This document shows positions 10,419 through 27,357 of a DNA stretch of 39,522 nt, in pieces. Below the pieces are notes generated by a model. It searched no databases. It was not told where the DNA came from and saw only the letters and a list, made by a program, of their open reading frames with translations. Within the stretch, counting starts at the first letter, position 1; each line of letters opens with the position of its first letter. A program made the translations under genes and the position numbers. This stretch comes from Mariprofundaceae bacterium (GTDB taxonomy: Bacteria > Pseudomonadota > Zetaproteobacteria > Mariprofundales > Mariprofundaceae): positions 1 through 39,522 of the forward strand of contig JAUZQZ010000013.1 in assembly GCA_030950745.1 (NCBI GenBank), in the 5' to 3' direction.

Positions 10419-10441
10419 GCACCCTCCCGATTATAACAAGT

Positions 10442-10602
10442 GAGCCACTTGCAAAACTCATGAGCGGCAATCGGCTTCCCCACTTCGGTCCATTTCCGAT
10501 CTGGAATTTCGGTCCATGGAACCACCATGCACCTCATTCCACCCCGAAAATGGACTCAAAGTGGGATTGCCGCTCATCCACCCAGAGTTTTGCAAGTGGC
10601 TC
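10442..10602. mobile_element. MITE-like 161-bp palindromic element, full copy 1
   Basis: Terminal inverted repeat GAGCCACTTGCAAAACTC, inner inverted repeat TGAGCGGCAATC...GATTGCCGCTCA; flanked by AAGT on both sides; near-identical to 27197-27357. Confidence 0.8.
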
Positions 10603-10675
10603 AAGTGAAATTACATACATTAACCTGTTCACATAAAGCCGCATGCAATGAGTACAAACGACTGTGAGCCATGTA

Positions 10676-25904: not shown

Positions 25905-25931
25905 ACCACACAGGAAGAGATCAGGTCTTAA

Positions 25932-25966
25932 GAGCCACTTGCAAAACTCATGAGCGGCAATCGGCT
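25932..25966. mobile_element. Solo left end of the MITE-like element
   Basis: GAGCCACTTGCAAAACTCATGAGCGGCAATCGGCT is identical to the first 35 bp of copy 1. Confidence 0.8.
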
Positions 25967-26029
25967 CTTAATTCGTGCTTTTTTTACCCAATAATCAAAA
26001 AAAATGAGAGACAGACTCGATTGATCTGC

Positions 26030-27196: not shown

Positions 27197-27357
27197 GAGC
27201 CACTTGTAAAACTCATGAGCGGCAATCGGCTTCCCCACTTCGGCCCATTTCCGAGCTGGAATTTCGGTCCATGGAACCACCATGCACCTCATTCCACCCC
27301 GAAAATGGACTCAAAGTGGGATTGCCGCTCATCCACCCAGAGTTTTGCACGTGGCTC
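27197..27357. mobile_element. MITE-like 161-bp palindromic element, full copy 2
   Basis: Same length and orientation as copy 1 with 4 substitutions; GAGCCACTTGTAAAACTC...GAGTTTTGCACGTGGCTC. Confidence 0.8.

Follow-up and report, generated by a model that had tools for sequence, protein, structure and literature searches.

The window analysed here is a stretch of 39,522 nucleotides from a Mariprofundaceae bacterium, corresponding to contig C35 of the source MAG (1.89 Mb, 146 contigs, 88.6% complete). Two copies of a 161-bp palindromic repeat in this window raise the question of what the repeat is and how it came to be dispersed. Very probably, it is a MITE mobilised by an IS1182-like (ISUnCu17-group) IS with the same ends, whose DDE transposase acts in trans.

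The repeat and its derivative in the window

An initial annotation had described two copies of a non-autonomous, MITE-like element, and its coordinates, length, shared orientation and four differences were all exact (Table 1). As it also stated, the window holds no transposase, and with 161 bp the gene-less element has no room for one. The outer inverted repeat GAGCCACTTGCAAAACTC that it reported is perfect in copy 1, and in copy 2 each arm has a single change. Its view that nearly the whole element can fold back was borne out by folding copy 1 as DNA, which yielded one hairpin of -54.8 kcal/mol, compared with -18.7 +/- 2.9 kcal/mol for shuffled sequences; this hairpin has a 7-nt asymmetry, one per arm. 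A third family member, missing from the annotation, is composed of the first 35 bases of the element and its last base, joined via a shared GGCT, and thus corresponds to the element minus the 125 bp between two GGCT repeats. All three copies are intergenic.

Table 1. Members of the repeat family in the window, with their ends and flanking duplications
Feature	Coordinates	Strand	Remarks
MITE copy 1, 161 bp	10442..10602	+	4 substitutions vs copy 2; hairpin z -12.6
Target-site duplication AAGT, left of copy 1	10438..10441	.	exact 4-bp direct repeat
Target-site duplication AAGT, right of copy 1	10603..10606	.	exact 4-bp direct repeat
Left terminal inverted repeat GAGCCACTTGCAAAACTC, copy 1	10442..10459	+	motif common to autonomous IS1182-like element ends
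Right terminal inverted repeat, copy 1	10585..10602	-	reverse complement identical to left end
MITE copy 2, 161 bp, without exact target duplication	27197..27357	+	98% identity to copy 1
36-bp deletion derivative	25932..25967	+	35 nt = copy 1 positions 1-35
TTAA flank, probable target duplication, left of 36-bp derivative	25928..25931	.	
TTAA flank, probable target duplication, right of 36-bp derivative	25968..25971	.	

Copy number, target duplications and distribution

Blastn analyses of the source MAG returned 80 matches, one on either strand for each of 40 copies of the palindromic element, a number to be read as at least 40 since 90 candidates were found and 40 scored. The 18-bp end, with up to three mismatches, occurred 121 times in this MAG, compared with two occurrences of the reversed control. 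Many of these copies are located at contig ends; therefore, the repeat breaks the assembly and explains where many of its contigs stop. The 14 full-length copies of this genome have a mean identity of 98.1%, with 13 of them at one or two substitutions from the consensus and one at five. Their changes are mostly private, and this star-like divergence is as after a recent burst.

The initial annotation took the AAGT flanking copy 1 for a possible target duplication that might be due to chance, since it found none around copy 2. The lack of a duplication at copy 2 was confirmed. Chance was countered by a set of 63 two-ended elements (38-377 bp) from the own and related genomes, 43 of which are bordered, directly beyond GAGCC...GGCTC, by an exact direct repeat of 4 or 5 bp; one member of this set (377 bp, G210) is an internally deleted IS and not a MITE. 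With re-paired flanks, 2000 trials gave a mean of 1.35 duplications and a maximum of 7. The AAGT is thus a real target duplication.

Insertion polymorphism was found between related genomes. A MITE copy in G024 (L081:573-757, without exact target duplication) is missing in the sister species G016: its flanks align up to position 572 and resume at 759, and the two alignments meet at neighbouring positions, 1845/1847, of this empty site. The two remaining copies examined coincide with alignment gaps whose size fits but whose breakpoints are not exact. Allowing one mismatch, G024 has 241 end matches, the most of any genome, and its sisters G004, G016 and G031 have no exact end match, a natural comparison for studying rates of spread and decay. 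Another dispersed repeat, ca. 93% identical at several places, lies between two MITE copies of G024 (L081, 1156-1501).

The exact end pattern, which also picks up IS ends and not MITEs alone, matched 20 of the 399 genomes of the phylum. One or two loci were read per genome, and genomes assigned to IS may also hold MITEs. MITE-type sequence followed the end in the same family (G000, G005, G024, G035, G141, G153, G163, G191, G208, G234, G256 and G262) and in another family of the same order (G039). IS-type sequence was found in G215, G102 and G210, as well as in G084, which lies outside the family; the sequence behind the end in G057, G087 and G189 could be assigned to neither type. G033 contains one full-length copy with 77% identity. 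The element was absent from the phage, plasmid and viral collections searched. In some copies (L031, L036, L044, L071, and L064 in G005) the interior contains an additional block, GATTCGGGCCGTTGGCCCTCACCC...GGCCTTTTTGT, which has short palindromes of its own and is shared between genera. Outside the family, G057 contigs C39, C59, C207 and C216 (L108, L127) carry a repeat with the end GAGCCTCTTGCAAAATTC, cut at contig ends. This is perhaps another IS of the ISUnCu17 group; the body of such a putative IS was not found.

Autonomous insertion sequences sharing the MITE ends

The MITE ends, GAGCC(A/T)CTTGCAAAANTC, are those of a ca. 1.45-kb IS with a transposase of ca. 375 aa (DDE_Tnp_1/DUF772) and 4-bp duplications. 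Traced from an end match, a 377-aa ORF with both domains was identified between two such ends in G084, and G163, G215 and G102 have homologues 60-62% identical to it, with one stop interrupting the frame in G102. A boundary search around 30 homologous transposase genes, blind to the MITE end motif, delimited elements of ca. 1.45-1.5 kb, mostly with GAG(C/G)nnnTTGCA(A/G)AAnTC ends. Several had exact 4-bp duplications, and no such ends were found at some incomplete or divergent loci.

Intact IS copies are present in other Zetaproteobacteria. The G215 transposase locus has the sequence of MNWZ01000165.1 (Zetaproteobacteria bacterium CG1_02_53_45), whose IS shares 18-bp ends with the MITE, 17 of 18 positions being identical at one end. 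The G163 locus corresponds to JAUZSH010000007.1 (Ghiorsea sp.), and by these two identities the family is assigned to Zetaproteobacteria. The IS of Ghiorsea sp. Faavne_M6_B18 likewise has 18-bp ends (GAGGTAATTGCAAAACTC, with three differences from those of the MITE) and a 4-bp duplication, TATG. Unlike the MITE, these autonomous elements carry a transposase. The nearest named element is ISUnCu17, an IS1182-like element from an Aeromonas caviae plasmid (NZ_AP026405.1), with ends GAGCCTCTTGCAAAA/GAGCTTCTTGCAAAA and a 4-bp duplication, ATGA. With 1483 bp it is autonomous, in contrast to the gene-less MITE, and its transposase is 49% identical to the zetaproteobacterial one. Full-length relatives of this transposase, 44-52% identical, are annotated as IS1182 or ISUnCu17. 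Its best match among NCBIfam models, the IS1182 model NF033551, scored 79.6 bits, far below the curated cut-off of 270, and for this reason the partner is called only IS1182-like. Replacement of palindromic targets without duplications was reported for IS1272, a member of IS1182, and not for all members (PMC5678879); the partner IS group differs in leaving 4-bp duplications. No sequence relative of the transposase was found in the PDB at E 0.01, and literature searches on the MITE end sequence and on ISUnCu17 returned nothing.

In the own assembly, the search for a full IS turned up two fragments only. One is an IS right end (C49:1-131), which can be aligned to the corresponding IS ends in G210 and G215; the other, at the end of C32, comprises 24 transposase codons with 92% identity to the transposase of G215. 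Both are situated where a contig stops, the location to be expected of a repeat that was not assembled. Two further candidates were rejected: G012:C20 turned out to be a gene-fused remnant, and an end pair 1371 bp apart in G024:C7 to be two separate MITEs. A short DDE_Tnp_1 locus (L105 1159-1850, G000:C121) displays perfect 21-bp inverted repeats, TAGGGAGATGCTGATCAACTC, unrelated to the MITE ends.

MITE and IS are linked by their 18-bp ends and by the length of the duplications, from which the ISUnCu17-group transposase emerges as the putative mover. The DDE transposase of the ca. 1.45-kb IS would recognise the terminal inverted repeats in trans, and insertion at staggered cuts would generate the 4-bp, sometimes 5-bp, target duplications. 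A single foldback lineage probably spread through Zetaproteobacteria, with a separate amplification in each of several genomes, that in the source genome being recent. The established similarity of MITE and IS is that of the 18-bp ends. In the sequence further inside, the left arm of the MITE resembles IS right ends (set-wide P 0.01, compared with P 0.11 for the right arm), and neither arm resembles IS left ends, a hint that both arms might derive from an IS right end.

Several other origins were considered for the repeat. The initial annotation tentatively related it to IS21, likening its repeated motifs to the multiple terminal repeats of these elements and pointing to an inner repeat that starts with TG. 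However, it is GAGCC, and not the inner TG, that the duplications directly adjoin, and the transposase encoded between such ends is of the DDE_Tnp_1/DUF772 type and not IstA/IstB, so that an IS21-derived MITE has next to no likelihood. It is scarcely more credible that the repeat is not mobile and has been conserved for a function, as a structured RNA or a regulatory hairpin. The strength of the hairpin, the intergenic position of the three copies in the window and the occurrence of changes on both sides at 15 of 44 consensus pairs are in its favour. The two MITE ends change together between genomes (columns 6-158 are A-T in 14 and T-A in 6; columns 16-148 are C-G in 9, G-C in 9 and A-T in 2), but concerted changes of the arms are also expected from the fit to a single transposase variant or from conversion between arms, two processes that the data do not separate. 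A hairpin maintained in place accounts poorly for target duplications, an empty site and a star-like burst. Moreover, one copy lies within a coding sequence, and Rfam gave no match.

A MITE moved by another, unassembled transposase family recognising the same ends is unlikely too, if the least so of these alternatives. It would agree with the assemblies of the own MAG (88.6% complete) and of G024, neither of which contains an intact transposase of the ISUnCu17-like group. It would also agree with the co-occurrence of MITE interiors and transposase in the 74 genomes of the family, which was not significant: MITE interiors were seen in 12-13 genomes, including three of the eight with transposase matches (P 0.11-0.14). 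A value of P 6e-4 obtained from the end-pattern genomes was dropped as circular, the sampled ends in G215, G102 and G210 being the IS itself. Against another family, the same ends, with 4-bp duplications, surround one transposase group across many phyla, and the DDE_Tnp_1 loci surveyed in the own MAG have ends different from those of the MITE. A MITE mobilised by the ISUnCu17-group transposase is the reading that we retain.

Related elements and affected genes

The repeat is a real member of a well-known kind of element, apparently unreported; no paper on MITEs of Zetaproteobacteria was found in the literature search. Besides adding a MITE to this class, it ties ISUnCu17-type ends to a widespread IS group. 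Other bacterial MITEs such as ERIC, Correia, QMITEs and MITEAba12 are likewise short and non-coding with inverted ends, but have other ends and other partners (see also PMC10969869). Rickettsia palindromic elements are described as palindromic, ca. 150 bp long and readable in frame in host genes (PMC10969869). In contrast to these elements, which are mostly in-frame inside genes, the copies studied here are mainly intergenic, with one clear in-frame case.

This case is a copy of the own genome (L015, G000:C1, 1501-1654), where 154 bp with a 5-bp TGAAC duplication lie within a methyltransferase-like ORF and are read through in frame, adding 53 residues to the predicted product. When the full 161 bp are inserted together with a 4-bp duplication, a gene grows by 165 bp (55 codons), and most of the copies compared have an open forward frame 3. 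Given this open frame, the copy in the methyltransferase-like ORF and start codons in remnants, the element might repeatedly supply zetaproteobacterial genomes with new protein segments, its interior being conserved because it is tolerated inside genes; we consider this proposal quite improbable.

Remnants with one end and no second end, mostly 20-50 bp and fused directly to other sequence, were observed at L035, L038, L040, L041, L045, L048, L050, L067 and L079, as well as at L056 (G012). At L038, L045 and L067 the ATG of the remnant opens the downstream ORF, and the L056 remnant is part of the N-terminus of an ORF.
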